Program-made: the position numbers and the translations under genes
The notes under the pieces: model-generated
Database searches by the model: none
Told to the model about the DNA's origin: nothing
What the model saw: the letters and a program-made list of their open reading frames with translations, nothing else
Assembly: GCA_964017045.1 (NCBI GenBank)
Contig: OZ024808.1
Span: 31,278,013-31,342,012, forward strand
Source of the DNA: Omphiscola glabra
Lineage: Eukaryota; Mollusca; Gastropoda; Lymnaeidae
Direction of reading: 5' to 3'
Length of the DNA stretch: 64,000 nt
In this document: positions 16,382 through 60,691 of the stretch, piece by piece
Layout of the letters: every line of letters begins with the position of its first letter
How positions within the stretch are numbered: the stretch's first letter is position 1

Positions 16382-16410
16382 TTACCCAAATGATGGACTG
16401 TTACCAAAGC
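16382..16410 (-). CDS. NUP214: NUP214 probable terminal coding exon
   Basis: After acceptor atttcag the sequence reads GFGNSPSFG and then TAA. The stop overlaps a good donor (gg|gtaagc at 16385). If that donor is used, a 45-bp intron with a strong pyrimidine tract ends at 16341 and the tail becomes GFGNSPSFGGSNNLYHQFWM. Both fit phase; I prefer the direct stop because a 45-bp intron would be very short. Confidence 0.6.
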
Positions 16411-19400
16411 CTGAAATGTAATAGTAAAGATTTTGAATTGGTTTTAGCTGTTTTAATATTTATCTACATACTTATTTAACTACATAAATATACATTTATC
16501 TACACACATATGGATTTATGTACATATTTATGGATTTATCTACATATAAATTTAACCAACAATTAACATAAAATGCTAAAAAATTATTTATTTCCCATGA
16601 TGCACTACCAAGTATTTTCCAAAGAGTAATCCGTGTCCAGGACATTGTTCAGGTGACAACTTAAATCCAACTATTCCACGTAGATATAAAGATTATGAAA
16701 ATGTCCATGAGATCTAAAATTTAAATAACATTTTTGTTGAGTTTTACGTTAACGGTGAATATATCTTTTAAAAGTTTCTTGAAGTTTCTATCTTAGTCTA
16801 GAATGTTCTAATTTTTATAAAGGGTTTTATGATTTTATAAATTATAACTAATGTCCGTCTTATGTTTCTTATGTTTTTATAAAATTTGATGATTTTCATC
16901 AATGTTTTTGAAGTTTCTAGAAAGTTCCAAATTAATGTAACGGGTTCTACATTGTATGTTCCTTATAATAGCCTAAACCTTACAGAAAGGCTTAGGTTAC
17001 AATGCAATCATTTATGTAAATTTTTGCATCTAACGTGGAAAACATAGGCTTCATAATCCCTTTTAAAATATGGTAGGATTTCAACAAAATAACTAACCAC
17101 ATCTTTAAGGGAACCCCAAATTTTAGTTTAAATAAAAAGCCTCATCTTTGGAATTTTCAGCCAATTTTTAAAATAAAGTTTGTTCGTTATTTTGGAAAAT
17201 TAACTTGAATATTTATCTGAATGTTTGTTAAAGTGCCCTATCTTTGGGATCATTTTCTATTTTACAAATTTTGGAATGGGGATCCTATTTCATTTTAATT
17301 GGTAAACTGCCATAGCTTTGGCAATGGTGTAAACTGCCATAGCTTTGGCAATGGTGTAAACTGCCATAGCTTTGGCAATGGTGTAAACTGCAGTAGCTTT
17401 GGCAATGGTGTAAACTGCCATAGCTTTGGCAATGGTGAATACATTTTATTAAAATAATAAATCTTTTAAAATTTAGATATGTGACATCTTTTGAGAGTTA
17501 GATATGTCTTTATATTTTTTTTTTAGCTTTGAAATCTTTGGTATACTGAATAGTTTAGTTTGATATATCAGATAGTTTGGTATATTGGATAGTTTGGTAT
17601 ACTGGATAGTTTGGTATACCGGATAATTTGGTATATTGCATAGTTTGGTATATTAGATAATTTCCAATAGAGAAAACTGAACTTTTTTTATTTCTTCTTT
17701 CCATTTTTGTCCAATGTGTAAAAATATAATAATTTTTGCTGCTAACCTCATAATTTTTTAAAATTTTTAAAAACATCTATGGAGGCATTCGTCTTTTGTT
17801 TTTATATTTAAATTAATAAATGACCGACCTGGTGTGGGCTGAGATCCACCAAACCCTGGATTTGAAGCAGCTTGACCAAAGCCAGGCGTAGATGCGGCTT
17901 GTCCAAACAAAGATGTGCCACCGCCGAATGAACTCTGGCCGGAGCCAAATCCACCTCCAAATGGTGAGCTCGGGTTGGGCTGGGATGAGCCGAACCCTCC
18001 TCCTACAGCGGTGCCGCTACCAAAGCCAGGTGAGGCAGGGGTGGTCTGAGCCAGCTGTCCAAAGGTTGGGGACTGGGTGCTGGCAAAGCTGAGAACATGG
18101 AGGGAACAAATAGATTCCATATCAAGCAATCCTATTTCTATCATGTTGTTCTCCTGTCTTCTAAGTTTATTAAGATATATTTACCAAAAAATAAATAAAT
18201 TTTTAGTTGTGATCTGACATAACATTTAACAATAAAGGATATAACATTTTGGCACTGAGCCTCTTTAATCTCATTTATATGAGATTAAAGAGGCGCAACA
18301 GTTTTTTGGGTTGGCCAGAATTCTGACCCTTGATAATATTTATTGATTACTTTGTGTCTTATTGACTTCTATTCTATGTGGACTCCCAAGTTTTCAAGCA
18401 GTGTTCTCCCAAGTTTTCAAGCAGTGTTCTCCCAAGTTTTCAAGCAGTGTTCTCCCAAGTTTTCAAGCAGTGTTCTCCCAAGTTTTCAAGCAGTGTTCTC
18501 CCAAGTTTTCAAGCAGTGTTCTCCCAAGTTTTCAAGCAGTGTTCTCCCAAGTTTTCAAGCAGTGTTCTAAGTAACAAATTAAGTTAGCGGTGGGTGTTTG
18601 CCTACAAACCTGCTGAAACCGCCACCTGAGGCTGTGCTGCCAAATGTGGATGAAGTGCCTCCCAGGCTAGAAAAAGCTGGAGCCGAGCCAAATGCAGGAG
18701 CTGCACCGAACGCTGGGAGTGAGCTGAAGGCCGGCTTGGCTCCGAATGCAGCGGAGCTTCCAAAACTTGGTGCCGTGCCAAAGACAGATGATCCACCAAG
18801 AGCTGTGGGACGAAAACAAAATATTATTGAGGGATCTCCTTCGGTTTAACGGTAAGATGGCTTATTTAGCTGATGGGGTCAAAGGTTATCTGCTGAAGAT
18901 GGTCATACATTTGTTTGAGCCATTTACTGGGAACAATAAGTCTGAGATAAAGTAAAAATTGCTAGTTGTTGTTTATGCTAGTTGTTGTTTATGCTGGTTG
19001 TTGTTTATGCTGGTTGTTGTTATGCTGGTTGTTGTTAAAGTTATTTGTTGTTAAAGCGGTTTGTTGTTGATGCTGGTTGTTCTATCAGTAGTATATGAAT
19101 TCAAGTTAATGCCAGAATCTGTTCAACACACCTAAGTGTTTGTTCTATCAGTAGTATATGAATTCAAGTTGCTACTAGAATCTGTCCAACACACTGAGGC
19201 ATTCAATGAAAGTTTACTTCCAGGAATAAACTAAGTCTGCTTAGACTGTGTTAAACCAGTCTTGACATAGAATATTTTGAACTGCTTGGACTGTGTTCAA
19301 CTAATATTGTATTAGAAAACATTTCTTTTTAAATTTTGTGAAAATCTTTTGCAGAGTTAGTTGTTTAAAAATATATTTTAAATAAATAAAAATTGAAACA

Positions 19401-22400
19401 TGATAAACTGTGTCAGTCCTGCCCTTCTGCCTTGAATGTGCTCACCTCCACTGCTCTGTTGGGTGGACACACCAAAACCTGTGGCAGACACACCTGTGCC
19501 AGCAGAGAAGCCACTCCCACTGTTGCCAGTGCCAGAGAAGGTACCGCCAAGTGTTCCAAATGTGTTACTGCCACCACTACCAAACAGATCTGATTGGAAT
19601 ACACAATGGTAAACATGATTGGAATACACAATGGGAAAGATGACAGGAATACATAACTGTGAAAATAGTCATATAACATTAAGTCATACAGACATAGTCA
19701 TATGCATATTTGTCATAAGGTCATTACAACATGATTGTAAAGATATTTTCTAAGCAACTAGTTTCAACAAGTTTTATTTTCAAAATGTGCCAGGAAAAAA
19801 TAGTCTCTAAAAATTGTGGATATTTGACTCTACATTTCATTTAATTGGGATGACAACCAAACGTCATTAGGATGGAAAGCGTGAGATGTGGTGACAACCA
19901 AACATGTCATGACAAGAAATAGTTTGGACAAATCACTGAGCCAGACAAACCTGACATGCCATAGTTTCAGACAAACCTGACATGCCATAGTTTCAGACAA
20001 ACCTGACATGCCATAGTTTCAAACAAACCTGACATGCCATAGTTTCAGACAAACCTGACATATCTAGAAATATTTCTGACATGTCATTGAGTCCTTTTTG
20101 CTTTTTGAAGATAAAAAAAACTTGGCCCTAATTTTCCCATTGTTTTACAGAAGCTGTTGTAGAAACAATTCTTGGTTAGAGCAATGATGGTGAAAGGCTG
20201 TTACTATTTCATGACATAATTTAAGACAGAAGAATGAATGTACGACCAAACATTGCTTACTGCTGCTCTGAGCTGAGGGGCTGCCAAACACTTGTGGGGT
20301 TCCAAACACATTCTGCTTGGCCTTCTCCTCTGATGGCTTCCCACCGAGACCACCAAACCCAAAACTTGGACCAGAACTAGAGCTGTGAAGCAAATGTTTG
20401 TGTAATAAATGGTTGTGATTGTGAAACAAATGGTTTTGTAATAAATGATTGTGAAGCAAAGGATTGTCATTGTTAAACAAAGGTTTGGGAACCAGTTCTG
20501 TTAAACATCAAAACATTAGAACCTTCCTTCATCTTAAGTCCATTTCAATCAGTCTCTGTGCAGTATCTTACATGAGTGTTGACCAATTTACCTGGATGGC
20601 TGCTGGCCAAAGGCTGGCTGCTGACCAAACAAGGAGGTAGAGCCTGATGAATTTGACTGCTGGCCAAAGAGAGTTGAAGGAGTGGTGGCTGACCCGGACT
20701 GTTGACCAAAGACAGTTGAAGGAGAGGCAGCTGACCCGGACTGTTGACCAAAGGCAAACGACTGACCACCAAAAGCAGAGCCTAAAATACAATTTAGTTG
20801 ACACATTTGAAAAACATTTGTTTACATTAGCATTAGAAAATGTTAGAGAAAGTCTGCTAAACATCTTGCTATGGGGCATTACATGATCATATATTGGTTA
20901 TTGACATAATGCACAGAGGAAAATGATCATTACATGATCATATATTGGTTATTGACATAATGCACAGAGGAAAATGATCATTACATGATCATATATTGGT
21001 TATTGACATAATGCACAGAGGAAAATGATCATTACATGATCATATATTGGTTATTGACATAATGCACAGAGGAAAATGATCATTACATGATCATATATTG
21101 GTTATTGACATAATGCACAGAGGAAAATGATCATTACATGATCATATATTGGTTATTGACATAATGCACAGAGGAAAATGATCATTACATTATCATATAT
21201 TGGTTATTGACATAATGCACAGAGGAAAATGATCATTACATGATCATATATTGGTTATTGACATAATGCACAGAGGAAAATGATCATTACATTATCATAT
21301 ATTGGTTATTGACATAATGCACAGAGGAAAATGATCATTACATGATCATATATTGGTTATTGACATAATGCACAGAGGAAAATGATCATTACATTATCAT
21401 ATATTGGTTATTGACATAATGCACAGAGGAAAATGATCATTACATTATCATATATTGGTTATTGACATAATGCAGAGGAAAATGATCATTACATTATCAT
21501 ATATTGGTTATTGACATAATGCACAGAGGAAAATGATCATTACATTATCATATATTGGTTATTGACATAATGCTCAGAGGAAAATGATCATTACATTATC
21601 ATATATTGGTTATTGACATAATGCTCAGAGGAAAATGATCATTACATTATCATATATTGGTTATTGACATAATGCACAGAGGAAAATGATCATTACATTA
21701 TCATATATTGGTTATTGACATAATGCTCAGAGGAAAATGAGTTGCACTCTTTAAAAAAAATCCTACTTAAATAGACTGTGATACAAATTTGTTTGGAACT
21801 ATTCCAAAGCTTCAATTAAAGAGTCAATTTTATTTTTGTATTATTTCCACACAAAGATGGGTTTCATATTGTATAATTTATTGGTCCTTTTTAAGCTGAG
21901 TTTAATGTCCCAAAAATGATATGCACCTAATGAATGCTCTAAGAGGAGTTAAACAGTGATATTACAGAGTTACATGTAACAACATAGTTAAACAGAGATA
22001 TTCCAGAGTTATGTGTAACAATATAGGTAAACAAGAGGTATCCCAGAGTTACATGTAACAATATATTTTAATTTAAATCATAGATTGCATTGAGAATGGG
22101 AGATGTTACCATGATATTAGTTACCCCAAGATAACAGCGATGTTACATTAAATTTGAGTTACCCCAGTATGACAGGGATTTGACACTGAAATAAGTTATC
22201 CCAGTATGACAGGGATTTAATTGCATTTATCTCAGTTGTCATGATTAATGATGACTTAACATGATTAATGATGACTTTAAAAGATTAATGATGACTTAAC
22301 ATGATTAATGTTGACCTCACATGATTAATGATGACTTCACATGATTAAGATAACTTCACATGATTAATGATGACTTCACATGATTGATGACTTCACATGA

Positions 22401-34400: not shown

Positions 34401-36860
34401 TTTATCAGAATCAATCAAGATAGAGTGAGTAAACTTAAACAGTGATATTAACCCTGATTTCCAATACTATATCCTTATAGAAAACATAGGAAAAAATAAA
34501 TGTTGTCATTATGTTACAATGTTTGGTCATGTGAACAAATGTCATTACGTTACAATGTTTGGTCATGTAAGCAAATGTCATTACGTTACTATGTTTGGTC
34601 ATGTAAGCAAATGTCATTACGTTACTATGTTTGGTCATGTAAGCAAATGTCATTACGTTACAATGTTTGGTCATGTGAACAAATGTCATTATGTTACAAT
34701 GTTTGGTCATGTAAACAAACGGCTGTATTTGACAGGACTCTAGTGGCATGAACAAAACCAATGAGACATTCATAACTGTTATGACAAATAATTTTACAAA
34801 CAAACCTTCTCAATTTTTATATTGTTCTCATTTTGTGGCTCTCAATTTTATGGCATCAATTTTTATTATTCGAGAACCACGTAAAAAAATAATTTTCCTT
34901 TTCTAATTTGATACTTAAAAAATATCTGGTGCCATTGTACCACACCATTTTCATCTCCAATAGAAATAAACATTTCAATTATAAAAAATGAGGCATAGAA
35001 AGAAAGCTAATATGATCAATCAGCTGTTTATATAAATATAGCTGGGGATCAGTTAAGTATAGTTGGGGATCAGTTAAGTATAATTGTGGATGAGTTAAGT
35101 ATAGCTGGGATATCAGTTAAGTATAGCTGTGGATCAGTTAAGTATAGCTGGGAATCAGTTAAGTATAGTTGGAGGCTGCATGAAATATAGCCGGGAATTA
35201 GCTAAGTAAAGTTGAGGGTCAGATACACACCTCCAAAAATAGAAGTACCGGCGGAGGCACCAGTAAAACTGAAGGCATCGGCCGCTGCCTGTGCAGGAGA
35301 CGTGTGGGTGTCAGTTGATTTGTGGGGTGTGCTTGTTGTTACATCTCCTGTTGAAGTCTGACTTGGCATTAAGTCCTGGTCTGGGTGTGTTGAGTCTCCT
35401 AGAAGACAAATATATTTGACCTAATTAATTAAAAGGTTGTGCTGACAATGTGTTCAGGAAAGGTGTGCTATGGAACAGTTATTTCATTTCCCGATGTACT
35501 GTAATTTAGTAGTAGCCTGTACATTGTCCAACTGAACAACCACTACAGTACTACAGGTAACTATGGCAACCACTACAGGTAACTATGGCAACCACTACAG
35601 GTAACTACAAAACATTGAAGTGAGTAAACAATATTTTTGTTAAAATAATTTGTACACAAAATACTTCAAGCCAAAATTTCCCAAATGTTTTGTTTCGTTG
35701 TAGTCTGGTTATTTTTATACCTGTCCTTTGTGACCCACTTACAATTTGATGGCTTATTCTGGCCTATAGGTAACATGGGACAGGTGACCCACTTACAATT
35801 TGAATGCTTATTCTGGCCTATAGGTAACATGGGACAGGTGGGAATGTCCATAAAGATTGTATACATTTCAATTAAAAAAGCAATGACTCATTTTGTAAAG
35901 AAATCAAGGATATACCTGGTACATCATGTGTTCATCATGATAAGTGAGATACATGGTACATCATGATAAGTGAGATACTTGGTAAATCATGTATTCATGA
36001 TAAGTGAGGTACCTGGTACATCATGATAAGTGAGATACTTGGTAAATCATGTATTCATGATAAGTGAGATACCTGGTACATCATGATAAGTGAGATACTT
36101 GGTAAATCATGTATTCATGATAAGTGAGGTACCTGGTACATCATGATAAGTGAGATACTTGGTAAATCATGTATTCATGATAAGTGCAATACATGGTACA
36201 TCATGTATTCATGATAAGTGAGGTGCTTGGTACATCATTATTAGTGAGATACATGGTACATCATGTATTCATGATAAGTGAGGTGCTTGGTACATCATTA
36301 TTAGTGAGATACTTGGTAAATCATGTATTCATGATAAGTGAGGTGCTTGGTACATCATTATTAGTGAGATACATGGTACATCATGTATTCATGATAAGTG
36401 AGGTGCTTGGTACATCATTATTAGTGAGATACCTGGTACATCATGTATTCATGATAAGTGAGGTGCTTGGTACATCATTATTAGTGAGATACCTGGTACA
36501 TCATGTATTCATGATAAGTGAGGTGCTTGGTACATCATTATTAGTGAGATACCTGGTACATCATGTATTCATTATAAGTGAGGTGCTTGGTACATCATTA
36601 TTAGTGAGATACCTGGTACATCATGTATTCATGATAAGTGGGGTGATGTTTTATTTATTTGTTCACTATAAAAGTTTGAAGAAAAAGATTTATTCTTATA
36701 TCCCAGCTTTTCTCCTTGACTCTAACCCAGGGGTGGGGAAACTTTACTTGACAGAGAGCCAAATCTTAAAATTTGTATCTAGTTTTAAAAAATTGAAGAG
36801 ACACATGAAAAAATATCTCATACAGTGTATGAGATATTTTTTTTTCATGTGTCTCTTCAA

Positions 36861-51900: not shown

Positions 51901-54900
51901 AAACATCACATCATGACAACATCATGTCATCACAGCATGACAACATCACATGAACACAAGTATAGCAGCACAGCTTTCAAACTCTATCCATAGAACAATT
52001 TATTTACCCGTTCAGAACACTCCTGGACACAATATCTATATCCCTGTTGGAGGCTGTGGTGTACAGTTTGAGATTCTTGAGTTGATTCTCCAACTTTCTT
52101 AGCTGTTCACGTTGACTCACTATGACAATATTGTTGTTTTTAATCGTCTTAAAGATGGTGTCACCTGTCGGAGTGTGGAGCCTGCAGAACAATATCAAAC
52201 TCATCATAACACAGGGTAAAACATTGAGTAGAATTGCCTTGATAAGACAGGGTAAAACATTCAGTAAAAATGCCTTCACAAGACAGGGTAAAACACTAGA
52301 GTAGAATTGCCTTCATAAGACAGGGTAAAACACTAGAGTAGAATTGCCTTCATAAGACAGGGTAAAACACTAGAGTAGAATTGCCTTCATAAGAAGGGTA
52401 AAACACTGGGTAGAAATGTCTTCACAAGACAGGGTAAAACATTGAGTAGAAATGAATTCATAAGCAGACCAGACAGAAATCAACAGGCCAGAATGGCATG
52501 TTCAATAGAAGAAAGACAGCCATTGTGTAAGTTTGTTGTGTAGGAACATTGTTTTTGATGTTACGATATAGGACTAATTGTATTGATGGAAGAATGCTTC
52601 TTAGATTTTACTTTAGTCAATTTCAACCAAAAATATGCAGGTATTGAAGTTAATGTGACAACATATACCTGTGACCAGACCTTATAGTCTATAGTTTGTT
52701 TCAATTTAAGCAAAGGTTAGGGCACAATTAATGTTAAAAATAATAATTTAAAAAAAGGAATGGTCAAATATACTTTTCATCTTTTCTTTTCTTGTCCAGG
52801 TGTTCTTGCCAGACAGCATCCAACACTCTGTCCACTTCCAGAATGCTGTGTTCAAGAGTCTGAGCCATCTGTTGTACAGACCTTAACTTCTGGGCGCTGG
52901 ATGGATCCAACACTCGTTTCTGTGGGACAGATGTGCAGCAGATGTAAACGTATTTACTTCAGAATATTACATGGCAGACAGCATGTTTAAACATACAAAG
53001 AGTTGATTTTCAAAATGCTGTATATCCATTGTGGGGGTTTTGAGTTTATTCAACTTTTAACAAAAAATTAATAACGCGTTTAGAAAATTAAATCCTTTTT
53101 AGACAAGAATAAAATAGGTATATAATATGTTTAGCATATAAAATTTACCATGTCCTAAAGGAATCTGGTTTGCTCTACAAAAAGGTAAGGTTTTTTCATT
53201 TTTTTAAAAATGGTGGATACCACATTTTGAAAATAAGCTCTTCAATATCAATTTCATAAAACATTTATCGTTTAAAAAAAAACATTTTATAAACAATAAG
53301 TATCACCAATATGATTATTGTGGCCTGTCTTATTCTTAGTAATAATTCTTAGTAATAATTATTATTATTATTATTCCAGGTGAACCAATCTGGACATCAC
53401 ATAGACGACTTTTGAAAATGAATTTCCTAGTCAGTTCTTCATACATCACTTTTATTATAAATGACTTCACATAAATGACTTCATCAATGTACCATGTCTT
53501 AATTCAAGCTGGATGAAATTTGTAAAGTAATATAACATCTCTTGCTATAAATCCATTGACTTCTTCAAGAAATTTAATTATATCATGTCACTGAAAACTC
53601 TACATTATGTCCACACTTATGAATTGACTTAACTGATTAAACATGCTTTCAAGTATGGCTGCCAATAAAGTTCCTTCTTACAGCCAATTAATCACTTGTA
53701 TTCTTCCGCCTCACATTAATTGGTGAGTTGAACTCGGTGATAAACAAACACCCTATATCTTGATGTTACAATGATCAAATAATACCCGGGGGGTTGGTGG
53801 GGTGGGGACATTTCATAATTCAAGGATTTATTGTTGGGTATAAATACGACATTAGTTCTTGCTTTCTTTTAAATAATGAGTCTTTAAAATATAAATCTTC
53901 AGTTTAGAGCAGGCCAATGATAAGGAGCAGGCCAATGATATGGAGCAGGCCAATGATATGGAGCAGGCCAATCAAATGGAGCAGTGGGGATTATTTTGTT
54001 TGTTAAATTCCTCTGTTATAAGAAATTAAAGAAGGGGGTTCGGATGATTTAAGAAAAGGTTCTCACCTGTAACAAGGAATTGTAGTAGGGGTCAGCCTCT
54101 CTATGAAGGCTGGCCTTACATTCCTCGGCCATTGCAAAAAGGTTAAAGCAAAGACTTTTCTGCTCTTGGGCCTCTCTTTGTTGATCCTGAAATCATAGAT
54201 CAATCATCAGATAGACAAATACTCCTAAATCATAGTTCAGTCATCATTAGACAAATACTCCTGAGATCAAAGATCAATCATCATATAGACAAAATACTCC
54301 TGAAATCATAGATCAATCATCATATAGACAAATACTCTTGAAATCATAGATCAATCATCATGTAGACAAATACTCCTGAAAGCATAGATCAATCATCATA
54401 TAGACAAATACTCCTGAAATCATAGATCAATCATCATATAGATAAATACTCCTGAAATCATAGATCAATCATCATATAGACAAATACTCCTGAAATCATA
54501 GTTCAGTCATCATATAGACAAATACTCCTAAAATCATAGTTCAGTCATCATATAGACAAATACTCCTGAAATCATAGTTCAGTCATCTCATACTCCTCAA
54601 TGAGCGTGAACAATAAAATAAATGTTTGTAATAAAGTGTCTATGTGATAATGAAGTTACAATGAGTTGTTTAAATGAACAATAACTTTGTTTCGTACGTG
54701 GTACTCGGGAATTATAGAAGTTAAAAGATATCAAGAAACATTTTTTTTTCCATACCTTAACAGAAACAGCAACAACCTAGAGAATCATACTTATAGTTCT
54801 ATGATAGTAATAGTTCTATGATAGTAATAGCTCTATGATAGTTATAGTTCTATGATAGTTATAGCTCTATGAAAGTTATAGTTCTATGATACTTATAGCT

Positions 54901-57900
54901 CTATGATAGTTATAGTTCTATGATACTTATAGTTCTATGATAGTTATAGTTCTATGATAGTTTGTCCTACCTTTGTGGCATCTTTGATTTCAGTACAAAA
55001 CTGAATCATCTGTTCTGTTTCCCTTCTCAGAAACTGCTTCTCGTCCTGTGTCCCAACTTTCATAAACACCTTCTTGGAACGAGTTCTAAGCTCATTGAGC
55101 TCTTTTTCAAAGTCAGTTATCTGAAGACAAAATTAATATCATTGGTAGAAACAAAGTCAGTTATCTGAAGACAAAATTAATATCATTGGTAGAAACAAAG
55201 TCAGTTATCTGAAGACAAAATTAATATCATTGGTATAAACAAAGTCAGTTATCTGAAGACAAAATTAATATCATTGGTAGAAACAAAGTCAGTTATCTGA
55301 AGACAAAATTAATATCATTGGTAGAAACAAAGTCAGTTATCTGAAGACAAAATTAATATCATTGGTATAAACAAAGTCAGTTATCTGAAGACAAAATTAA
55401 TATCATTGGTAGAAACAAAGTCAGTTATCTGAAGACAAAATTAATATCATTGGTAGAAACAAAGTCAGTTATCTGAAGACAAAATTAATATCATTGGTAT
55501 AAACAAAGTCAGTTATCTGAAGACAAAATTAATATCATTGGTAGAAACAAAGTCAGTTATCTGAAGACAAAATTAATATCATTGGTAGAAACAAAGTCAG
55601 TTATCTGAAGACAAAATTAATATCATTGGTAGAAACAAAGTCAGTTATCTGAAGACAAAATTAATATCATTGGTATAAACAAAGTCAGTTATCTGAAGAC
55701 AAAATTAATATCATTGGTATAAAAGCATAAATGATTATGAAAACAATGTATAATTCCTAGAAAATACTTGAGAGCAAAAATGTGTTTTTCAATTTCTTTG
55801 TAAAGGCCAGTGATATAGAGCATGCCAATCTTATGGTAGACAAGTTTATTATAGTTGAATAAGTGCCACTCTGTTTGTATTTATTTAACAGGTAAGCTTT
55901 TAAAATACTAGTAGATGCAAATGCAGCCACTACAGATCAAATAGACATATATATTATGTCAGAAATAAGTGAAACAAATAAAGAAAAAAACACAATCAAG
56001 CCACATACAATATTTGTAAGACATAATTTCAACATAAAAACATGAACTTTTATCTACAATGGCATTTTTTTCTGATGCCATTAAATAAAATTCAAAAATT
56101 TAATTTTGTTCAGATATAAACTACCTCTTCAATGATATTCTGTGTAAAAGCGCTGTCCACAGTGGCTTCAATATTGGCTGTTGCTGGCTGTTGGATGGCT
56201 GCAGAGAAAAAGAAATTTTTATAAAAACAATTTAAAGAAATTGATGAAAATGAGGGCTACAAACTGTCTGTTGAACCAGCTGCAGTTTTACAGCTGCACA
56301 TCCACAAATCCAATTTTACAGCTGCAGTTTTACAGCTGTACATCTACAGGTGCAGTTTTACAGATATACTTCTACGGCTGGTGGACTAAATACACAACAG
56401 GGGTCCTTAAACTTTTTAAACAAGGGAGTCCGATTAGTGTCCATCAGACATGGTCGGGGCCATGATTTGAATGAATTATATGCACACTGCACGTAATACT
56501 TGTGTAGTGGAAACGAAATATTTGAAAATACAATACAGTATTTAAAAACAAGAAAATATATGTCCAAGATAAGCTTAATAGTATTACAAAGGGAAGTAAA
56601 GGGCTAATCAGTGTCAGTGCCATATTTGTTTATTTGTTCCTGCTGGCCAGGTACCCTAAAGGTGGCCAGATAGGCCAATTAAAGACCCCTGGCGGGCCAT
56701 AGTTTGTGGACCCCTGATGTAGAACATTTAAAAGATATATTTTGGCTACAAAAGCCACTTTGATTGATGGATCTCTTTCTATTTTGAATCTTACCCTGAG
56801 CTAATCCTGTAAGAGAGGGCCTTGTGTATGCTGGTGGAATGGGTGCTAATCCTGATGTTGGAACAGTGAGTAGACCATTACCAGGGGGAGTAAGCCCTTG
56901 ATATGCTTGACTTTGAGGAGTTGTCTTAGCAGTAAAAGCAGATGGTGCATGTGGCTGAGCCTGGGGTGTTCCAAACACACTTGTCAGCTGGCCCTGGGGT
57001 GTTCCAAAAACACTGTTTGGCTGAGCCTGGGGTGTTCCAAATACACTTTTCAGCTGGCCCTGGGGTGCTCCAAGCACATTGGTTTGCTGGCCCTGGGGTG
57101 TTCCAAACAAACTTGTCGGCTGTGACTGTGGTATCCCAAACAGACTTGTTGGTTGTGTTGTTGCACCCTGACCTGTCACTTAAAATTTTTAAAAATTAAA
57201 ATATAAAAGGGAGCTAATGAATGATTTATATACTATATCGATTTTTTTCTCCTCCTTCACCTCCCTTTAATTTTAAGACTTATGTGATGTGTTAATAAGA
57301 TACCACAACATAAAGACTTAATAACACATTTACTTAAAAGCATATATTGGTGTTTCATTTCAAATATATTACTAGCTTATTTATCTACTAAACATTTTAA
57401 ACGTGGGGGGAGGAGGTGAGCCCTAGTAAAATATCTCATCCTGGTGTGTGGTGGTGTATGCCCTCCCTTTAGGCCTACCGCAGAAAGCTTATGTTGCGAT
57501 GATGACAGCTACATGCTAATATTGACACACTCTAAGACTGACACACTCTAAGACTGACACATTCTAAGACTGACACTAAGACTGACACACTCTAAGACTG
57601 ACACACTCTAAGACTGACACACTCTAAGACTGACACACTCTAAGACTGACACATTCTAGGACTGACACACTCAAAGACTGACACATTCTAAGACTGACAC
57701 ATTCTAAGACTGACACACTCTAAGACTGACACATTCTAAGACTGACACATTCTAAGACTGACACATTCTAGGACTGACACACTCTAAGACTGACACATTC
57801 TAAGACTGACACATTCTAAGACTGACACACTCTAAGACTGACACACTCTAAGACTGACACATTCTAAGACTGACACATTCTAAGATTTACACATTCTAAC

Positions 57901-60691
57901 ATTTACACATTTTAAGACTGACACGCTTGTTTTTGTACCAGTACATATACACTTCTACAAAACAACCCAACCTCTCCTGTATGCTTCCGTTAGCCAGATT
58001 TTTAAACTGGGCTATCTCCGAGAGACTTGATTTTTGAGTGAACTCCACTAGATTTTTAAAAAAAAAAATATGACATTTTGATTTGTCAAACTAAAGCATC
58101 TTCACCCCCATGAAAACTTCAACTGACCTACAGTCTTGGGGGTGACCTGGCTCACATTAAACAAGTTGAAGGGTTGTGTAGATGAGGACGCTGTAGTGGT
58201 GGCTGTAGTCAGAGAAGGTGGCATAGGTTGAGATCCACTTGCTTTTGACCCAAATGTACTGAAAGCCGTCGTCTGCAAACAATGAAAACGATGCTATATT
58301 CATAGGAATATAAAACCTCTTCACATATATGTCAAACATATAGTGTAGCTTATCATACAAATCATCCATTGCCCAGCTCATCATACACCTCATCCAGTGC
58401 CTAGCTCATCATACACCTCATCCAGTGTCTAACTTATCATACACAGCATCCAGTGCCTAGCTTATCATACATATCATCCAGTGCCAAACTTATCATACAT
58501 ATCATCAATTGCTTAGCTTATCACACACATCATCCAGTGCCTAGCTTATCATACACATCATCCAGTGCCTAGCTTATCATACACAGCTTCCAGCAACTAG
58601 CTTATATAAAGCATCCAAATATTTAATAGAATTTATAAAAGCGCATGTGCGCCTCCCCCCCCTCCCCCAAACCCTCCGCACTGTCCAGCAAGTTATCTGA
58701 CTGTGATACTTCCCCCCCCCCCTGCACTGTCAAGCAAGTTATCTGACTGTGATACTTCCCCCCCCCCTGCACTGTCCAGCAAGTTATCTGACTGTGATAC
58801 TTCCCCCCCCTGCACTGTCCAGCAAGTTATCTGACTGTGATACTTCCCCCCCCCCTGCACTGTCCAGCAAGTTATCTGACTGTGATACTCCCCCCCCCCT
58901 GCACTGTCCAACAAGTTATCTGACTGTGATACTTCCCCCCCCCCCCCTGCACTGTCCAGCAAGTTATCTGACTGTGATACTTGACCAGTTGACAGATTTC
59001 TCACCAACCATCCAAACTAACATTCAAGTCATTTGGGAGTGCCAGACTGTGTTTTATAAATTCTATTAAATTTTAACTTATCTGTTGGATAGTTGGAGCG
59101 AAATATGTCACCTGGTCAGGTATCACAGCCAAATAACTTATCTGAATAGTGTGGAAGGTTGCAGAAAAATCTGTAAAGTGGTCAACTCTCCTCAGCATCA
59201 GTAAGCTAATTTTTTATTGTTGGCTTGTTTTTGCTGGCTGAATAACTTGTTATGCAGTCATGTCAGTTGTTTCCTTTTTGCCTTTTTTCAGGTTCTTCCT
59301 TTGTACTACTTATTACTTTTTACCTAATCGTATCACAGTCTCTTCCACCCTCATTATTATCATCTGCCACACTGTTTACTTCCAAATGATGCACACTAAA
59401 AAAAAATCTGCCACTTTATTAATAGAAATTAAGCCAATGTAATTCCTTAATATTTTTAAACCAACAAAACAATATTTGCAGATAAAAGAAAGTCTCAGTG
59501 TTATAGAAAGAAAGTATCAGTGTTATAGAAAGAAGGTATCAGTGTTACAGAAAGAAAGTCTCAGTGTTATAGAAAGAAAGTCTCAGTGTTACAGAAAGAA
59601 AGTCTCAGTGTTATAGAAAGAAAGTTCCTGTGTTATAGAAAGAAAGTCTCAGTGTTATAGAAAGAAAGTCTCAGTGTTATAGAAAGAAAGTCTCAGTGTT
59701 ATAGAAAGAAAGTATCAGTGTTACAGAAAGAAAGTCTCAGTGTTATAGAAAGAAAGTCTCAGTGTTATAGAAAGAAAGTCTCAGTGTTATAGAAAGAAAG
59801 TCTCAGTGTTATAGAAAGAAGGTATCAGTGTTACAGAAAGAAAGTTCCTGTGTTATAGAAAGAAAGTCTCAGTGTTATAGAAAGAAAGTATCAGTGTTAC
59901 AGAAAGAAAGTCTCAGTGTTATAGAAAGAAAGTATCAGTGTTACAGAAAGAAAGTCTCAGTGTTATAGAAAGAAAGTCTCAGTGTTATAGAAAGAAAGTC
60001 TCAGTGTTATAGAAAGAAAGTCTCAGTGTTATAGAAAGAAAGTCTCAGTGTTATAGAAAGAAAGTCTCAGTGTTATAGAAAGAAAGTCTCAGTGTTACAG
60101 AAAGAAAGTCTCAGTGTTATAGAAAGAAAGTATCAGTGTTACAGAAAGAAAGTTCCTGTGTTATAGAAAGAAAGTCTCAGTGTTATAGAAAGAAAGTCTC
60201 AGTGTTACAGAAAGAAAGTTCCTGTGTTATAGAAAGAAAGTCTCAGTGTTATAGAAAGAAAGTCCCAGTGTTATTGAAAGAAAGTCTCACTGTTATAGAA
60301 AGAAAGTCCCAGTGTTATTGAAAGAAAGTCTCAGTGTTATAGAAAGTCTCTGTGTTATAGAAAGAAAGTCACAGTGTTGTGTTATAGAAAGAAAGTCTCA
60401 GTGTTATAGAAAGTCTCTGTGTTATAGAAAGAAAGTCACAGTGTTGTGTTATAGAAAGAAAGTCTCAGTGTTATAGAAAGAAAGTCCCAGTGTTATAGAA
60501 AGAAAGCCCCAGTGTTATAGAAGTAAAGCCCCAGTGATATAAAATGAAAATCCCAGTGTTACTGAAAGAGAGGCCCAGTGTTATACTACAGAGATAACTT
60601 ACTGCAGTGTCTGCTTTAGTTGTTGCTGTAAATCTTGTTGTGGTGGGCGTACCACCAAAGAGAGGAGTCACTGTTGTGAAGCTCTGAGTAG
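16382..60691 (-). CDS. NUP214: Nucleoporin NUP214 (CAN), 27 exons, 5' end outside window
   Basis: Spliced gene. Exons in transcript order: 60691-60603, 58272-58128, 57172-56795, 56198-56125, 55120-54971, 54186-54067, 52919-52774, 52181-52008, 51006-50858, 50554-50372, 48227-47998, 45578-45359, 44982-44902, 42521-42357, 41844-41752, 38051-37884, 35398-35231, 34187-33963, 32617-32543, 29681-29575, 29076-28350, 20781-20592, 20382-20261, 19589-19446, 18802-18610, 18088-17829, 16410-16382. I checked every border by hand: all introns are GT-AG and all phases match, giving about 1600 codons. Human NUP214 is about 2090 residues; the missing part equals the beta-propeller and early linker. Family knowledge: it sits on the cytoplasmic face of the nuclear pore, binds NUP88 and NUP62 through its coiled coil, binds the DDX19 helicase through its propeller and binds export receptors such as CRM1 through its FG repeats. 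The coil, the post-coil block (NMTPEKIARLRDILSQRK) and the GLGGKPS motif near the C terminus support the identification. Confidence 0.93.
16411..17828. other. Last NUP214 intron
   Basis: AT-rich intron with five 27-bp copies (ggtgtaaactgccatagctt) at 17315-17440 and about six 17-bp copies (gatagtttggtatactg) at 17548-17665. No further exon needed by phase. Confidence 0.7.
17829..18088 (-). CDS. NUP214: NUP214 penultimate FG exon
   Basis: 260 nt, phase 2 to 1. Encodes SFASTQSPTFGQLAQTT, then several GFGSG and PFGGGFGSG motifs, SLFGQAASTPGFGQAAS and ends GGSQPTP. Donor g|gtcggt is unusual but phase-consistent. Confidence 0.87.
18385..18568. repeat. 23-bp minisatellite (intron)
   Basis: Eight virtually identical copies of ccaagttttcaagcagtgtt plus ctc. 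The 23-bp period makes all three plus frames open. Confidence 0.95.
18610..18802 (-). CDS. NUP214: NUP214 FG exon, PAFG type
   Basis: 193 nt, phase 1 to 2, strong acceptor (tcccacag). Encodes ALGGSSVFGTAPSFGSSAA, then FGAKPAF, PAFGAAPAFGSAPAF and STFGSTASGGGFS. Similar to the human APVFGSPPTFGGSPGFGG segment. Confidence 0.88.
18955..19215. repeat. Short intronic repeats
   Basis: About seven copies of gctggttgttgttta (18960-19080), then two roughly 65-bp copies containing tctatcagtagtatatgaat (19080-19200). Confidence 0.8.
19446..19589 (-). CDS. NUP214: NUP214 Gly-rich FG exon
   Basis: 144 nt, phase 1 to 1. Encodes NLFGSGGSNTFGTLGG, then TFSGTGNSGSGFSAG and ATGFGVSTQQSSG. Three FG motifs. 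Donor g|gtgagc. Confidence 0.88.
19590..19650. repeat. Two to three copies abutting an acceptor
   Basis: The unit tgattggaatacacaatggt begins exactly at the acceptor of the 19446-19589 exon. The second copy has lost the AG. Confidence 0.75.
19945..20070. repeat. 26-bp minisatellite (intron)
   Basis: Four to five copies of catgccatagtttcagacaa plus acctga. Confidence 0.88.
20261..20382 (-). CDS. NUP214: NUP214 exon with GLGGKPS motif
   Basis: 122 nt, phase 2 to 1. Encodes SSSSGPSFGFGGLGGKPS, then EEKAKQNVFGTPQVFGSP and SAQSS. FGGLGGKPSEEKAKQNVFG corresponds to human FSGLGGKPSQDAANKNPFS, a conserved landmark near the C terminus. Confidence 0.93.
20383..20470. repeat. Degenerate copies next to an acceptor
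   Basis: Three copies of tgtgaagcaaatggttttgt-like sequence. In the copy touching the exon this is the acceptor (cttcacag); in the others the final G is A. Confidence 0.7.
20592..20781 (-). CDS. NUP214: NUP214 FG exon, FGQQ type
   Basis: 190 nt, phase 1 to 2. Encodes GSAFGGQSFAFGQQSGS, then repeats of FGQQSGSAASPSTV and ends FGQQPAFGQQPS. Six FG motifs. A 42-bp coding period. Separated from the previous exon by a 7.6-kb intron carrying the Helitron. Confidence 0.9.
20880..21740. repeat. 51-bp minisatellite (intron)
   Basis: About 17 copies containing atgatcattacatgatcata and ttgacataatgcacagagga. Two variants (catgatcat or cattatcat) are ordered: the first dominates near the exon, the second distally. 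atgatcattacatgatcat is itself an inverted-repeat-like core. Confidence 0.95.
21741..22204. other. Intron spacer
   Basis: Loose repeats of agagttacatgtaacaa (21960-22060) and ccagtatgacagggattt (22160-22215). No exon. Confidence 0.6.
22205..22556. repeat. About 20-bp minisatellite (intron)
   Basis: About 17 copies of catgattaatgatgacttca with 1-4 bp indels. Confidence 0.9.
22626..27236 (+). mobile_element. Non-autonomous Helitron, about 4.6 kb
   Basis: The left end reads tctatatatataaaaatgaa, a usual animal Helitron 5' terminus (TC start). The right end has the stem ggcat-ttgcaacgc-like loop-atgcc followed by gggtactcg and ctag, i.e. a 3' hairpin about 9 bases before CTRR. The flanks are A on the left and T on the right, the Helitron A|T target. 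The inside holds about six pairs of degenerate 180-bp blocks (each with gcgctcctacaccattcat and ttcttatatgagct) at 22670-25130 and more at 26580-26990. No Rep/helicase ORF is visible, so it must have been mobilised in trans. Confidence 0.85.
27237..28325. repeat. 47-bp minisatellite into which the Helitron inserted
   Basis: About 23 copies containing tcagatataatttattgtta and gttttgttgtgtcatctgta plus tgtca. It ends about 20 bp from the donor of exon 28350-29076. The bases left of the Helitron (tctgtatgtca) are the end of one unit and the bases to its right start the next. Confidence 0.95.
28350..29076 (-). CDS. NUP214: NUP214 large FG-repeat exon
   Basis: 727 nt, phase 0 to 1; the largest exon here. 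Encodes more than a dozen FG motifs, mostly S-x-F-G-G separated by Ser/Thr/Ala spacers, and ends APGFGSSNNS. A 12-residue unit (VFGGSAATPSSS) occurs three times with near-identical codons, a 36-bp coding minisatellite. Disordered hydrogel-type domain that binds transport receptors. The plus strand is also open for 251 codons as a by-product of base composition. Confidence 0.92.
29365..29590. repeat. NUP214: 23-bp array made of 5' splice-site copies
   Basis: About nine copies of cactagtggacactcactta plus cct. On the minus strand every unit reads tccactagtgag|gt(a/t)agtg, identical to the true donor at 29574. Confidence 0.93.
29575..29681 (-). CDS. NUP214: NUP214 spacer exon with tandem donor array
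   Basis: 107 nt, phase 1 to 0. Encodes APDSVSTSASTTATAKRS, then SDEADSTSVTVAPVSTSE. No FG. The 3' edge (tccactagtgag|gtaagt) is the unit of the 23-bp array that follows. Confidence 0.82.
29942..30232. repeat. 33-bp minisatellite (intron)
   Basis: Nine copies of gtaggtacctaactagtgag plus tcaatcatggtct; three successive sub-variants. Frames stay open on both strands because 33 is divisible by 3. Confidence 0.95.
30318..31525. repeat. 14-bp array with 448-bp higher-order duplication
   Basis: About 85 copies of catatagtgactag. A variant string starting at catgaagtga recurs at 30603 and 31051, with matching variants for several hundred bases. Confidence 0.93.
31735..32310. repeat. Three degenerate copies of a roughly 207-bp segment
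   Basis: Copies near 31780, 31985 and 32195 share aacgaggatataaccttt and ggcagaatgtttattcgtta, with gcgccacctagcg-like sequence between. Origin unknown. Confidence 0.8.
32464..32551. repeat. NUP214: 29-bp array of 5' splice-site copies
   Basis: Three copies (one native) of ataactatggctacctgagg plus gtgat. On the minus strand each reads tcaccctcag|gtagccatag. Confidence 0.92.
32543..32617 (-). CDS. NUP214: NUP214 short FG-domain exon
   Basis: 75 nt, phase 1 to 1. Encodes TSSIFGLKGSADGGRFSF then GTKTSPS. The last bases (tcaccctcag) and the donor gtagcc are repeated twice more at 29-bp intervals downstream. Confidence 0.86.
32868..33890. repeat. 23/24-bp minisatellite (intron)
   Basis: About 43 copies of aataggataatgtcacatca plus tgt; variants differ by an extra c (cacca) and by tgt or cgt. 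Confidence 0.95.
33963..34187 (-). CDS. NUP214: NUP214 FG-domain exon with 12-residue repeats
   Basis: 225 nt, phase 1 to 1. Three tandem units like TSVFGGTPSTTA (36-bp period) and then STPAS repeats. Donor a|gtatgt. The native acceptor (catcaacag) is the last unit of the 42-bp array in the upstream intron. Confidence 0.88.
34188..34437. repeat. NUP214: 42-bp array of 3' splice-site copies
   Basis: Native acceptor plus five copies of ctgtttatcagaatcaatca followed by agatagagtgagtaaattagaa. Minus strand: ttgattctgataaacag, against the native ttgattctcatcaacag. Confidence 0.9.
34500..34720. repeat. 36-bp minisatellite (intron)
   Basis: Six copies of atgtcattacgttacaatgt plus ttggtcatgtaagcaa. 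Open in several frames because 36 is divisible by 3. Confidence 0.93.
35030..35225. repeat. About 21-bp minisatellite (intron)
   Basis: Seven or eight copies of gctggggatcagttaagtat; it decays toward the donor at 35230. Confidence 0.85.
35231..35398 (-). CDS. NUP214: NUP214 FG-domain exon
   Basis: 168 nt, phase 1 to 1. Encodes GDSTHPDQDLMPSQTSTG, a Thr-rich middle, and DAFSFTGASAGTSIFG at the end. One FG plus one FSF. Donor g|gtgtgt. Confidence 0.85.
35738..36645. repeat. Two intronic arrays
   Basis: Two copies of about 56 bp (gacccacttacaatttga, 35738-35845), then a 58-60 bp array (ggtacatcatgtattcatga, 35920-36645) with two segregated unit variants (taaatcatg early, ggtgcttgg late). Confidence 0.9.
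36728..36935. mobile_element. hAT-like end fused to a foldback
   Basis: Begins caggggtggggaaacttt, like many hAT termini. Then an inverted repeat of about 35 bp per arm (ttgaagagacacatgaaaaa, 36788-36868), a T/A homopolymer run, and a third direct copy of the arm from 36900. No matching 3' terminus seen. Confidence 0.55.
37133..37868. repeat. Three intronic arrays
   Basis: About eight copies of ccacagaagctgtcataac (37133-37275); five copies of a 49-bp unit with ttatctacactgatacagag (37350-37627); three to four copies of a 38-bp unit with ggatatatcaatgaaactta (37720-37868), reaching the donor of exon 37884-38051. Confidence 0.9.
37884..38051 (-). CDS. NUP214: NUP214 FG-domain exon
   Basis: 168 nt, phase 1 to 1. 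Encodes GLSFGGPALFGNKSVPT, then STIFGSNATPSRNVGFSD and ends GGLPASS. Three FG motifs. The donor (agtg|gtaag) is echoed once, intact, 30 bp downstream within the adjoining 38-bp array. Confidence 0.88.
38140..38420. repeat. About 60-bp minisatellite (intron)
   Basis: Five copies of gtccatgtttcccactgact plus aacttagtcatgtacccagcc. Confidence 0.9.
38515..38970 (+). mobile_element. Probable tRNA-derived SINE
   Basis: aaccgagtggtctaaactga resembles a tRNA-Leu/Ser A-box region and ggttcaatcccc 40 bp later fits a B box (GGTTCRANNCC). A GC-rich body follows (38640-38960) unlike the neighbouring AT-rich intron. Confidence 0.5.
38971..39417. other. Intron spacer
   Basis: Two copies of a 36-bp segment (gttatgaaatgttgggccta) at 39238-39310. 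No exon. Confidence 0.6.
39418..40205. repeat. 39-bp and 51-bp minisatellites (intron)
   Basis: Three copies of a 39-bp unit with cttggccagatagctaagac (39418-39545) and about eight copies of a 51-bp unit with ggcaaagtaaaaacataaat (39790-40200). Confidence 0.92.
40206..41751. other. AT-rich intron stretch
   Basis: Contains a minus-strand piece gtggatgattttattaa followed by a G run (40560-40635) that recurs inside the Helitron near 26297, so both may share a dispersed repeat. No exon found. Confidence 0.5.
41752..41844 (-). CDS. NUP214: NUP214 FG-domain exon
   Basis: 93 nt, phase 1 to 1. Encodes AFTPVKSKTGQQVSSKD, then LFGAKTTAPAAATG. One FG motif. Donor g|gtaatg. Confidence 0.85.
42150..42225. 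repeat. 25-bp triplication (intron)
   Basis: Three copies of gtgtacaattaccttgtcca. Confidence 0.88.
42357..42521 (-). CDS. NUP214: NUP214 first exon of C-terminal FG domain
   Basis: 165 nt, phase 1 to 1. Encodes SPTLVPSGNSAFGTRGSG, then GTFTFGAGTTTT and GGIFKIPQTSVPS. Two FG motifs. Symmetric phase-1 exons run from here to 32543, so exon gain or loss here would keep frame. Confidence 0.88.
42705..43435 (-). mobile_element. 5'-truncated non-LTR retrotransposon
   Basis: Minus-strand reading gives KILGCALVLSRLDHCNSLL then SCSPKHFIEKL (43338-43437) and later GERSFSFCAPKQWNSLPLHI, RDIPTTQAFKTTLKTHLVKL and YYSH with a stop (about 42940-43085). These are the C-terminal RT blocks of L2/CR1/Jockey-like elements. 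The 3' end is tagcctagggctaggctcat and an (att)n-like tail at 42705-42725. Flanked by caatag on both sides (target-site duplication). Confidence 0.85.
43441..44502. repeat. 47-bp minisatellite (intron)
   Basis: About 22.6 nearly identical copies containing gttttgttgatatcgagtgc and tgaatgtgtacaccgtaaac. All three minus frames are open over 360 codons because a stop-free 47-bp unit rotates frames. Confidence 0.97.
44902..44982 (-). CDS. NUP214: NUP214 short spacer exon
   Basis: 81 nt, phase 1 to 1, acceptor cttctacag, donor gtgagc. Encodes DGVLLPLPGRNDAMPHAV then KSLNQAQPQ. Accepted because borders and phase fit between two secure exons; no distinctive motif. Confidence 0.75.
45085..45340. repeat. 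About 45-bp minisatellite (intron)
   Basis: Five to six copies of agccaagtttagctgatgag plus ctcccagaaacccatgttt. Confidence 0.9.
45359..45578 (-). CDS. NUP214: NUP214 acidic-tract exon
   Basis: 220 nt, phase 0 to 1. Encodes QSQLLVGQTPVSSAVP, then KQSQYYEDVTETDET and about 24 residues made almost only of Asp, Glu, Tyr, Asn and Gly, ending SAFPGISE. The QYYEDV motif matches human SQRYYEDLDEVSS after the coil. The acidic run is encoded by GAT/GAG-rich near-microsatellite DNA. Confidence 0.88.
46125..46420. repeat. About 57-bp minisatellite (intron)
   Basis: Five copies of tggctgctctgttcttaaaa plus tgcctggttgcagccatgtg. Confidence 0.92.
46421..47997. other. AT-rich intron stretch
   Basis: Small duplications only (tgacaatatctttcaatcca at 46850-46910; acaatggtgtagggtaggcc at 47475-47550). 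No exon or element identified. Confidence 0.55.
47998..48227 (-). CDS. NUP214: NUP214 disordered spacer exon
   Basis: 230 nt, phase 1 to 0. Encodes QTPKHPASIQQGLSQSRIP, then Pro/Ala/Thr-rich sequence with TAFSGVAYLKPSPQT and ends SSPFAVPGIPK. Donor aag|gttggt is non-canonical beyond GT; phase with the next exon supports it. Confidence 0.82.
48460..48590. repeat. About 55-bp duplication (intron)
   Basis: Two to three copies of gatcattcaatttctaacat plus cagcagcaattgatgaaa. Confidence 0.85.
48660..49990. repeat. 23-bp minisatellite, 1.3 kb (intron)
   Basis: More than 55 copies of aatctctggtctgaaagtat plus aga, with shorter 18-bp variants lacking tctga. Longest array by copy length in the right half. 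Confidence 0.96.
50372..50554 (-). CDS. NUP214: NUP214 low-complexity Pro/Gln exon
   Basis: 183 nt, phase 1 to 1, after acceptor ttatttttag. Encodes NLSMSRIVAQTPGRSPNS, then a Gln/Pro-rich stretch ending PVPTGLLKLAN. No FG motif. Disordered spacer after the coil. Confidence 0.85.
50570..50815. repeat. Degenerate 27-28 bp array (intron)
   Basis: Eight or so diverged copies of gactaaaatagtcacagacc plus tactagt. Confidence 0.8.
50858..51006 (-). CDS. NUP214: NUP214 post-coil conserved exon
   Basis: 149 nt, phase 2 to 1. Encodes DTPSPLRVPQNLGVTLASVV, then NMTPEKIARLRDILSQRK and VPRVKSSTP. The block matches human [23 protein letters not shown], a diagnostic NUP214 segment just after the coil. 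Confidence 0.94.
51120..51430. repeat. 33-bp minisatellite (intron)
   Basis: Nine copies of gaagctatagacaaagttta plus agcaatcgtttgt. Confidence 0.94.
51540..51950. repeat. Irregular catca/acatc-rich array (intron)
   Basis: Loose repeats of catcacatcatgacaacatc without a strict period. Confidence 0.8.
52008..52181 (-). CDS. NUP214: NUP214 coiled-coil exon D
   Basis: 174 nt, phase 2 to 2. Encodes LHTPTGDTIFKTIKNNN, then the helix VSQREQLRKLENQLKNLKLY, then TTASNRDIDIVSRSVLN. Corresponds to human ...[21 protein letters not shown]...LQQLRLYKQT, the last coil segment. Confidence 0.94.
52200..52465. repeat. 37-bp minisatellite (intron)
   Basis: About seven copies of agacagggtaaaacactaga plus gtagaattgccttcata. 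Confidence 0.92.
52774..52919 (-). CDS. NUP214: NUP214 coiled-coil exon C
   Basis: 146 nt, phase 0 to 2. Encodes KRVLDPSSAQKLRSVQQM followed by a helix with VLDAVWQEHLDKKRKDE. Matches the human region KRPLDPKSEAQLQ...VNDVLDLEWDQHLEQKK. Donor aaaa|gtatat is weaker than average. Confidence 0.93.
52985..53904. other. AT-rich intron stretch
   Basis: An (att)n tract at 53350-53375 and no array or exon. 53905-53985 then carries five copies of ggagcaggccaatgatat. Confidence 0.6.
54067..54186 (-). CDS. NUP214: NUP214 coiled-coil exon B
   Basis: 40 codons, phase 0 to 0. Encodes DQQREAQEQKSLCFNLFAM and then AEECKASLHREADPYYNSLLQ. Continues the coil. The acceptor (gatttcag) is repeated many times in the 38-bp array immediately upstream in the intron. 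Confidence 0.9.
54187..54597. repeat. NUP214: 38-bp array of 3' splice-site copies
   Basis: About ten copies of cctgaaatcatagatcaatc plus atcatatagacaaatact. Minus strand of most units: gatctatgatttcag|ga, the same as the native acceptor at 54187. Confidence 0.92.
54795..54962. repeat. 18-bp minisatellite beside a donor
   Basis: About nine copies of atagttctatgatagtt; ends 7 bp short of the donor at 54970. Confidence 0.88.
54971..55120 (-). CDS. NUP214: NUP214 coiled-coil exon A
   Basis: Exactly 50 codons, phase 0 to 0. Begins ITDFEKELNELRTRSKK and contains KVGTQDEKQFLRRETEQM. This aligns with the start of the human NUP214 coil (pattern F-x-K-E-L-x-E-L-x-x-R-x-x-K then V-G-T). Heptad-like Leu/Phe spacing with many Glu, Lys and Arg. 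The acceptor is the template of the 44-bp array that fills the upstream intron. Confidence 0.95.
55121..55727. repeat. NUP214: 44-bp array of 3' splice-site copies
   Basis: Thirteen extra copies of caaagtcagttatctgaaga plus caaaattaatatcattggta(g/t)aaa beside the native one; spacing exactly 44 bp. Each copy holds the last intron bases (ttttgtcttcag) and the first 15 or so exon bases. Confidence 0.96.
55728..56124. other. Intron spacer
   Basis: Unique AT-rich intron without recognised elements. Confidence 0.6.
56125..56198 (-). CDS. NUP214: NUP214 exon entering the coiled coil
   Basis: A 74-nt exon with a very strong acceptor (tttttctctgcag). It encodes AIQQPATANIEATVDSAF then TQNIIEE, the lead-in to the coiled coil. 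Phase 1 in, phase 0 out, donor gtagtt. Confidence 0.88.
56398..56716. mobile_element. hAT-type MITE, 319 bp
   Basis: Terminal inverted repeats caggggtccttaaact and, reversed on the right, caggggtccacaaact (14 of 16 match). No coding capacity. The flanks atacacaa and atgtagaa give only an imperfect 8-bp target duplication. Confidence 0.75.
56795..57172 (-). CDS. NUP214: NUP214 linker exon, tandem FGTPQ repeats
   Basis: Encodes about seven tandem units of the form TSVFGTPQGQL (one reads VLGAPQ), then a Pro-rich segment ending SLTGLAQ. DNA period is 33 bp, i.e. 11 codons, so copy-number change stays in frame. Acceptor placed at tgacag|gt (57172); a nearby aag|tg (57178) is also phase-compatible. 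Phase 1 in and out, donor g|gtaag. Confidence 0.85.
57520..57925. repeat. 16-bp minisatellite (intron)
   Basis: About 25 copies of actctaagactgacac, with attctaag variants. Confidence 0.95.
58128..58272 (-). CDS. NUP214: NUP214 linker exon with single FG
   Basis: Starts in phase 0 after tttgcag and encodes TTAFSTFGSKASGSQPMPP, then Ser/Thr-rich sequence ending NLFNVSQVTPKT. Two donors overlap: gtaggt (exon end 58132, phase 0) and tag|gtcagt (exon end 58128, phase 1). Only the second keeps frame with a good acceptor of the next exon, so I chose 58128. Confidence 0.78.
58345..58605. repeat. 28-bp minisatellite (intron)
   Basis: About nine copies of cagtgcctagcttatcatac plus acatcatc. Confidence 0.9.
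58680..58985. repeat. C-run minisatellite, 43-48 bp (intron)
   Basis: Seven copies of ctgcactgtccagcaagtta plus tctgactgtgatact and a C run of 7-13 bases. On the transcribed (minus) RNA these are G runs. Confidence 0.93.
58986..59474. other. Intron spacer
   Basis: No array, exon or element recognised. Confidence 0.55.
59475..60590. repeat. 22-bp minisatellite, 1.1 kb (intron)
   Basis: About 50 copies of agaaagaaagtctcagtgtt plus at, ending about 10 bp from the donor of exon 60603-60691. Variants ttcctgtg and tatcagtg recur in blocks, indicating segmental amplification. Confidence 0.96.
60603..60691 (-). CDS. NUP214: NUP214 visible exon 1 (FG linker)
   Basis: Acceptor attcccag and donor gtaagt flank 89 nt. 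The first two bases complete a codon begun in an upstream exon that I do not see. It encodes TQSFTTVTPLFGGTPTT followed by a Thr/Ala-rich stretch and ends in phase 0. One FG motif (PLFGG). This is the most 5' exon I can support; it belongs to the linker between propeller and coiled coil. Confidence 0.8.

Follow-up and report, generated by a model that had tools for sequence, protein, structure and literature searches.

Mirages, the closest described counterparts of the repeats reported here, were reportedly found at the amphioxus gene Adh3 by Canestro et al. in 2002. In those parts of the amphioxus papers that bear on the comparison, they are tandem repeats lying across exon-intron boundaries, present in Adh3 and the globin genes BflGb6 and BflGb9 (PMC3087553) and further in TnC and PGBD5 (PMC3902484). 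The same parts describe duplication of both 5' and 3' boundaries, with the AG or GT kept in many, though not all, of the copies (PMC3087553, PMC3902484). The regular splicing of Adh3 and the globins is there reported to be undisturbed (by RT-PCR), and mirages are described as unstable in length between haplotypes, with somatic instability at Adh3 (PMC3087553). A further system, as outlined in a portion of its source, is the gain of introns by tandem genomic duplication of AGGT-containing segments (PMC4974935).

Here we describe comparable arrays in the NUP214 gene of a lymnaeid snail, Omphiscola glabra. The window, the whole stretch of 64,000 nucleotides that was analysed, carries the last 27 exons of the gene, the number given in an earlier note made from the letters alone; joined, they stay open in one frame for 1,600 codons, the only stop being the terminal one, and are collinear with Lymnaea stagnalis protein P0001 (1407 of 1572 aligned residues identical). 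A protein search with the central region gave six hits, the best an unnamed L. stagnalis protein (93%) and the next five snail and sea-slug proteins (51–57%, from three other snail species and one sea slug), two of which are named Nup214. Amphioxus was accordingly rejected as the source of this DNA, and L. stagnalis itself is unlikely at the identity found with P0001. Used splice sites were inferred from the protein, and where arrays meet exons 5, 6, 18, 19 and 20 not a single residue is gained or lost relative to P0001. Nine more exons lie upstream of the window in neighbouring stretches (L009 and L010); these were placed by eye and do not join in a single open frame. The gene and the arrays at or near its junctions are listed below, in window positions.

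16381..60691, minus strand: last 27 exons of NUP214, from one open frame and collinearity with L. stagnalis P0001
60691-60603, minus strand: exon 1 of the window
16410-16381, minus strand: exon 27 of the window
55108..55723, minus strand: 44-bp unit, 14 copies, over the acceptor of exon 5 (55120-54971); 13 exon nucleotides, 13 decoy acceptors
54185..54587, minus strand: 38-bp unit, 10.6 copies, ending at the acceptor of exon 6 (54186-54067); 2 exon nucleotides, 8 decoy acceptors listed
34188..34433, minus strand: 42-bp unit, 5.9 copies, ending exactly at the acceptor of exon 18 (34187-33963); 0 exon nucleotides, 5 decoys
32465..32553, minus strand: 29-bp unit, 3.1 copies, over the donor of exon 19 (32617-32543); 11 exon nucleotides, 2 decoys
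29347..29589, minus strand: 23-bp unit, 10.7 copies, over the donor of exon 20 (29681-29575); 15 exon nucleotides, 10 in-register decoys
20384..20467, minus strand: short array (36-bp x 2.0 and 15-bp x 3.5 rows) before exon 23 (20382-20261), 1 nt short of the last intron base
19591..19653, minus strand: 25-bp unit, 2.5 copies, before exon 24 (19589-19446), 1 nt short of the last intron base
37713..37873, minus strand: 38-bp unit, 4.2 copies, after exon 16 (38051-37884), starting 10–14 nt into the intron, without the donor

All eight splice positions named in the earlier note agree with ours when taken as the intron-side base. Five of these exons had been said to have their own splice site within the array unit, which holds for exons 5, 19 and 20 (11–15 exon nt), whereas the arrays at exons 6 and 18 end at the AG. 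The other three had been credited with few or decayed copies of the site; at exons 23 and 24 the arrays stop short of the junction and their inner copies lack the AG, while the array at exon 16 begins inside the intron, and the likeness between its unit and the junction has a rank p of 0.074. Among the eight named arrays, the exon edge is repeated in three, only the acceptor in two, and the whole site is missing in three. At one upstream exon in L009, with its donor at extended coordinate 66463, an array (a 66-bp shift, or a TRF period of 262 with 1.9 copies) reaches 7–8 nt into the exon, in an insecure exon model. The region of the exon 20 donor array (29400–29800) also has matches of 70–77% on seven contigs (C2, C4, C5, C11, C13, C16 and C19; L003–L008). 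Repeats occur elsewhere in the gene: coding exon 21 has internal tandem repeats at 28429–28632, whose units of 27 and 36 bp are multiples of three and which fall in the phenylalanine-glycine repeat region; the large intron after this exon holds a 340-bp unit in 6 copies (22671–24712); and an AT-rich near-palindromic foldback enclosing a run of T and A was seen by eye at about 36815–36950.

Boundary-spanning repeats are shared with mirages by the three exon-repeating window arrays and by three arrays of a myosin gene described below (14–31 exon nt). Also shared are the occurrence on both sides of the intron (donors of exons 19 and 20, acceptor of exon 5) and the presence of AG or GT in many but not all copies, as among the decoys of NUP214 and the myosin gene. 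The likeness is partial at exons 6 and 18, whose acceptor arrays barely or never enter the exon. The snail arrays differ in their lymnaeid host, in having five junction arrays within a single gene, some of them without exon nucleotides, and in copy number, which reaches 14 in the window and 42 in the myosin gene compared to 6 and 3 in two BflGb6 haplotypes, as given in part of the amphioxus account. With ordinary intronic minisatellites they share units of 23–44 bp, head-to-tail arrangement, high identity and intronic position, but their unit includes a used splice site and, in three window arrays, coding exon as well. The view that no such class had been described is wrong in the light of the amphioxus cases, on those portions of the two papers that define mirages (PMC3087553, PMC3902484). 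Novelty seems to lie in the host group and in the numbers of copies; no report of mirages in molluscs was found in the open-licence literature, which does not prove that none exists.

We propose, with a probability of about 0.66, that the three window arrays which repeat exon sequence began by tandem duplication across the junction, grew within the intron only, kept the outermost donor or innermost acceptor in use, and are neutral. A short duplication across the exon-intron junction would be the likely start of any exon-repeating array; later growth would proceed into the intron only, the protein barring growth into the exon, and selection on the protein would preserve the exon-side copy. Extra copies, lying in the intron, would be spliced out with it, and growth would be free as long as the exon-side copy is the one used.

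The earlier note took the exon-adjacent copy to be the intact one in all cases. By weight matrices built from the same 26 window introns, and hence not independent, many decoys instead score level with or above the used site: decoy and used site score the same in 13 of 13 cases at the exon 5 acceptor and in both at the exon 19 donor, three of ten in-register decoys equal the used donor at exon 20, and two of eight at exon 6 beat the used acceptor (10.4 and 10.3 vs 9.4), while all five at exon 18 are weaker. As decoys often score like the used site, strength mostly cannot explain why the exon-side copy is chosen, and it is for this reason that we propose exon definition. The predicted choice is the outermost donor or innermost acceptor, probably by exon definition, which would yield the shortest exon; the exons concerned are 75–257 nt long. 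Modelled use of the NUP214 decoys led to a premature stop in 37 of 37 (nine of the ten in-register decoys at exon 20 entered this test). We rejected these stops as evidence of selection; they are expected of intron sequence and say nothing on selection.

A second gene with junction arrays lies on a different chromosome from NUP214 (stretch L032, contig C17). It is a myosin-VII-like gene of ten exons, A to J, in one open frame, its best match is myosin VIIa, and the alignment is free of gaps at the array-bearing exon borders. We found five distinct arrays (TRF score 50), four of them on junctions.

L032, donor of exon C: 34-bp unit, 27 exon nucleotides
L032, donor of exon D: 41-bp unit, 31 exon nucleotides
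L032, acceptor of exon E: 42-bp unit, 42 copies, 0 exon nucleotides
L032, donor of exon E: 25-bp unit, 14 exon nucleotides
L032, fifth array: ends 15 nt before exon A

Exon E has 42 decoy acceptors, 30 above the used site and 12 below; among donor decoys, three of four at exon C and five of ten at exon E equal the used site, and one of four at exon D exceeds it. Modelled decoy use gave an early stop in 60 of 60. Taking both genes together, transcripts using a decoy would meet a premature stop in 97 of 97 modelled cases and would probably be degraded by nonsense-mediated decay.

A tandem paralogue of this gene, L034, is open in one frame across the same exon borders (67–89% identity per exon), and none of the four L032 junction arrays is present in it. 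Its intron D-E measures 117 nt compared to 2,357 nt in L032, its intron C-D contains just a 2-copy repeat distant from the junctions, and its own arrays lie 19 nt past one donor and 16 nt ahead of one acceptor, with none on a junction. The same borders without arrays indicate that in the myosin gene the junction was the likely seed of the array: either the junction predates the arrays, or L034 has lost its arrays cleanly. Given coding sequence common to L. stagnalis at NUP214 and myosin borders common to the array-free paralogue, a junction-spanning duplication is the simplest start for arrays that repeat coding exon. The L032 arrays, for which this was tested, introduce no new intron position, the exon borders being identical in L034. 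They share with the described mode of intron gain the addition of splice signals by tandem duplication, but there, in the portion of the source concerned, the duplication creates a new intron, whereas here arrays occupy introns whose borders are present in L034 (PMC4974935). Another myosin stretch, L033, has a 12-bp array of 3 copies 1 nt from a donor and one array of 2.1 copies; its exons do not join in one open frame. A 47-bp array of 12 copies at L029:2260-2823 (minus strand), the unit of which contains CTATAG|GTAAGT, may be a further donor array and is listed as a candidate only.

The paralogue bears on two other explanations. An intronic array might have reached an exon and one of its copies become the acceptor or donor, as would suit the arrays that end at the AG and hold no exon nucleotides (those of window exon 18 and L032 exon E); however, L034 has the same borders without arrays and the L. 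stagnalis coding sequence is unchanged, such that at most the intron side can have been replaced by array, and we judge this origin improbable. Alternatively, the arrays may be kept for a function, supplying spare or competing sites that tune the speed or frequency with which the exon is spliced. Copies of equal score could compete, although nothing direct favours this idea, and with four arrays missing from a paralogue that keeps the same exons open, and early stops in 97 of 97 modelled decoys, we consider it very improbable indeed. Under the junction-duplication model no function would be required, and the arrays look as if they had arisen neutrally, as by-products of a genome in which tandem repeats abound.

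That genome is assembled in 744.8 Mb and 37 contigs; of contigs C1–C19, 18 are large. Tandem repeats found by TRF make up 46% of the window, compared to a mean of 22% in 17 stretches of 10 kb, one from each of 17 chromosomes. One of the stretches, chosen by coordinate only (L016, G000:C4:20000000-20009999), is 95% tandem repeat. A search for coding exons in the 17 chromosome stretches and their neighbours yielded too few exons to be of use; dynein heavy chains gave 128 matches located in the genome. A mitochondrial contig of 13,783 bp carries COX2, ND4, ND2, COX1 and ND6 on one strand and ATP6 and COX3 on the opposite strand, an arrangement which we take to be of the euthyneuran gastropod type.

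With repeats this dense, it is possible that arrays arise anywhere in introns, with no preferred seed, and expand until selection stops them at the exon. We therefore compared array ends with a null in which each array was placed randomly within its own intron (5000 simulations), using 68 introns of four genes, two of whose models are weak (neither L033 nor the upstream part of NUP214 stays open in one frame), and 90 intronic arrays in the main run, or 93 under another merging rule for the split into donors and acceptors. Allowing a 15-nt overhang, 24 ends lay within 20 nt of a junction or across it compared to 9.2 expected (0 of 5000 simulations as high), and 13 within 3 nt compared to 4.8 (p = 0.0006). 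With a 30-nt overhang the same counts were set against 11.9 (0 of 5000) and 7.9 (p = 0.043), and ends at or across the junction numbered 10 against 7.2 (p = 0.18). The excess comes from the donor side (15 vs 4.6 expected, 0 of 5000), the acceptor side alone giving 8 vs 4.6 (p = 0.084).

Within 3 nt, L032 contributed 4 ends (0.42 expected, p = 0.0002), NUP214 with its upstream exons 8 (3.9 expected, p = 0.035), L033 one (0.14 expected, p = 0.14) and L034 none (0.33 expected). The excess holds when upstream NUP214 is removed (12 vs 4.2 within 3 nt, p = 0.0008), as it does for the window introns and L032 only (11 vs 3.7 within 3 nt, p = 0.0008; 17 vs 7.1 within 20 nt, p = 0.0002) and for the 26 window introns only (7 vs 3.3 within 3 nt or across, p = 0.042; 13 vs 6.2 within 20 nt, p = 0.005). 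With L032 removed, 19 ends fall between -31 and +20 nt where 11.2 are expected (p = 0.009).

A selected exon edge would by itself pile up array ends, as the wall explanation requires, and several results accord with it. Twelve ends lie 4–25 nt from a junction in introns of NUP214, L033 and L034, eight of them on the donor side; none has an ungapped in-phase match to the junction, their identity of 0.30 being the same as that of 161 far ends, and a gapped match at p ≤ 0.05 was found in 0 of 12. Since these ends carry no junction sequence, we ruled out the idea that near-junction arrays are decayed mirages. Array coverage of bases falls steadily after donors, from 56% at 401–1000 nt to 10% at 1–5 nt, and from 53% to 8% on nearing acceptors. 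In 221 local array units, donor motifs are not clearly above anagrams of the same dinucleotides (GGTRAG 7 vs 5, AGGTRAG 2 vs 3). Genome-wide, the triplet of CAGGTRAGT gave 2,260 matches compared to 1,840 for the backwards pattern, counted per match and not per array; among the matches listed, 100 such places amount to about 19 arrays of C1. As the single motif already occurs 8 times against 3 for its backwards pattern in 304 kb, the 1.23-fold ratio of the triplets need not mean that arrays favour donors. The acceptor arrays of exon 18 and of exon E, with no exon nucleotides, fit a wall equally well, and arrays that end at the AG, or 8–25 nt inside the intron, would be more simply explained by growth up to the exon edge. 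What such a wall leaves unexplained is the 11–31 nt of coding exon repeated within the intron in three window and three L032 arrays, and for this reason we lean away from it, while regarding it as a serious contender.

The suggestion that junctions seeded these arrays thus stands where exon sequence is repeated, and through the array-free L034, but does not extend to arrays that merely stop at or near an exon. The genome-wide comparison of array units with junctions proposed in the earlier note, run here in part, was likewise divided: more array ends lay at or near junctions than the null predicts in the genes analysed, while coverage drops near junctions and donor motifs are not clearly enriched locally or genome-wide. 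The best reading is that junction arrays are a neutral minority in an array-rich genome. A bolder proposition, that splice-junction minisatellites form a standing genome-wide class in pulmonate snails, with junctions as preferred seeds, arrays that turn over between paralogues, and position rather than strength marking the right site, seems to us doubtful.

Junction duplication in these genes would extend to a distant animal group the structure described in the amphioxus accounts, with more copies than the amphioxus cases for which those accounts give numbers. The L032 and L034 pair provides a comparison with and without arrays inside one genome, and ordinary RNA reads over rows of equally scoring splice sites could ask whether strength or position decides their use. 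If the genome-wide class is real, runs of up to 42 acceptor-like and 10 donor-like copies would be natural tests of exon definition beside constitutive exons.
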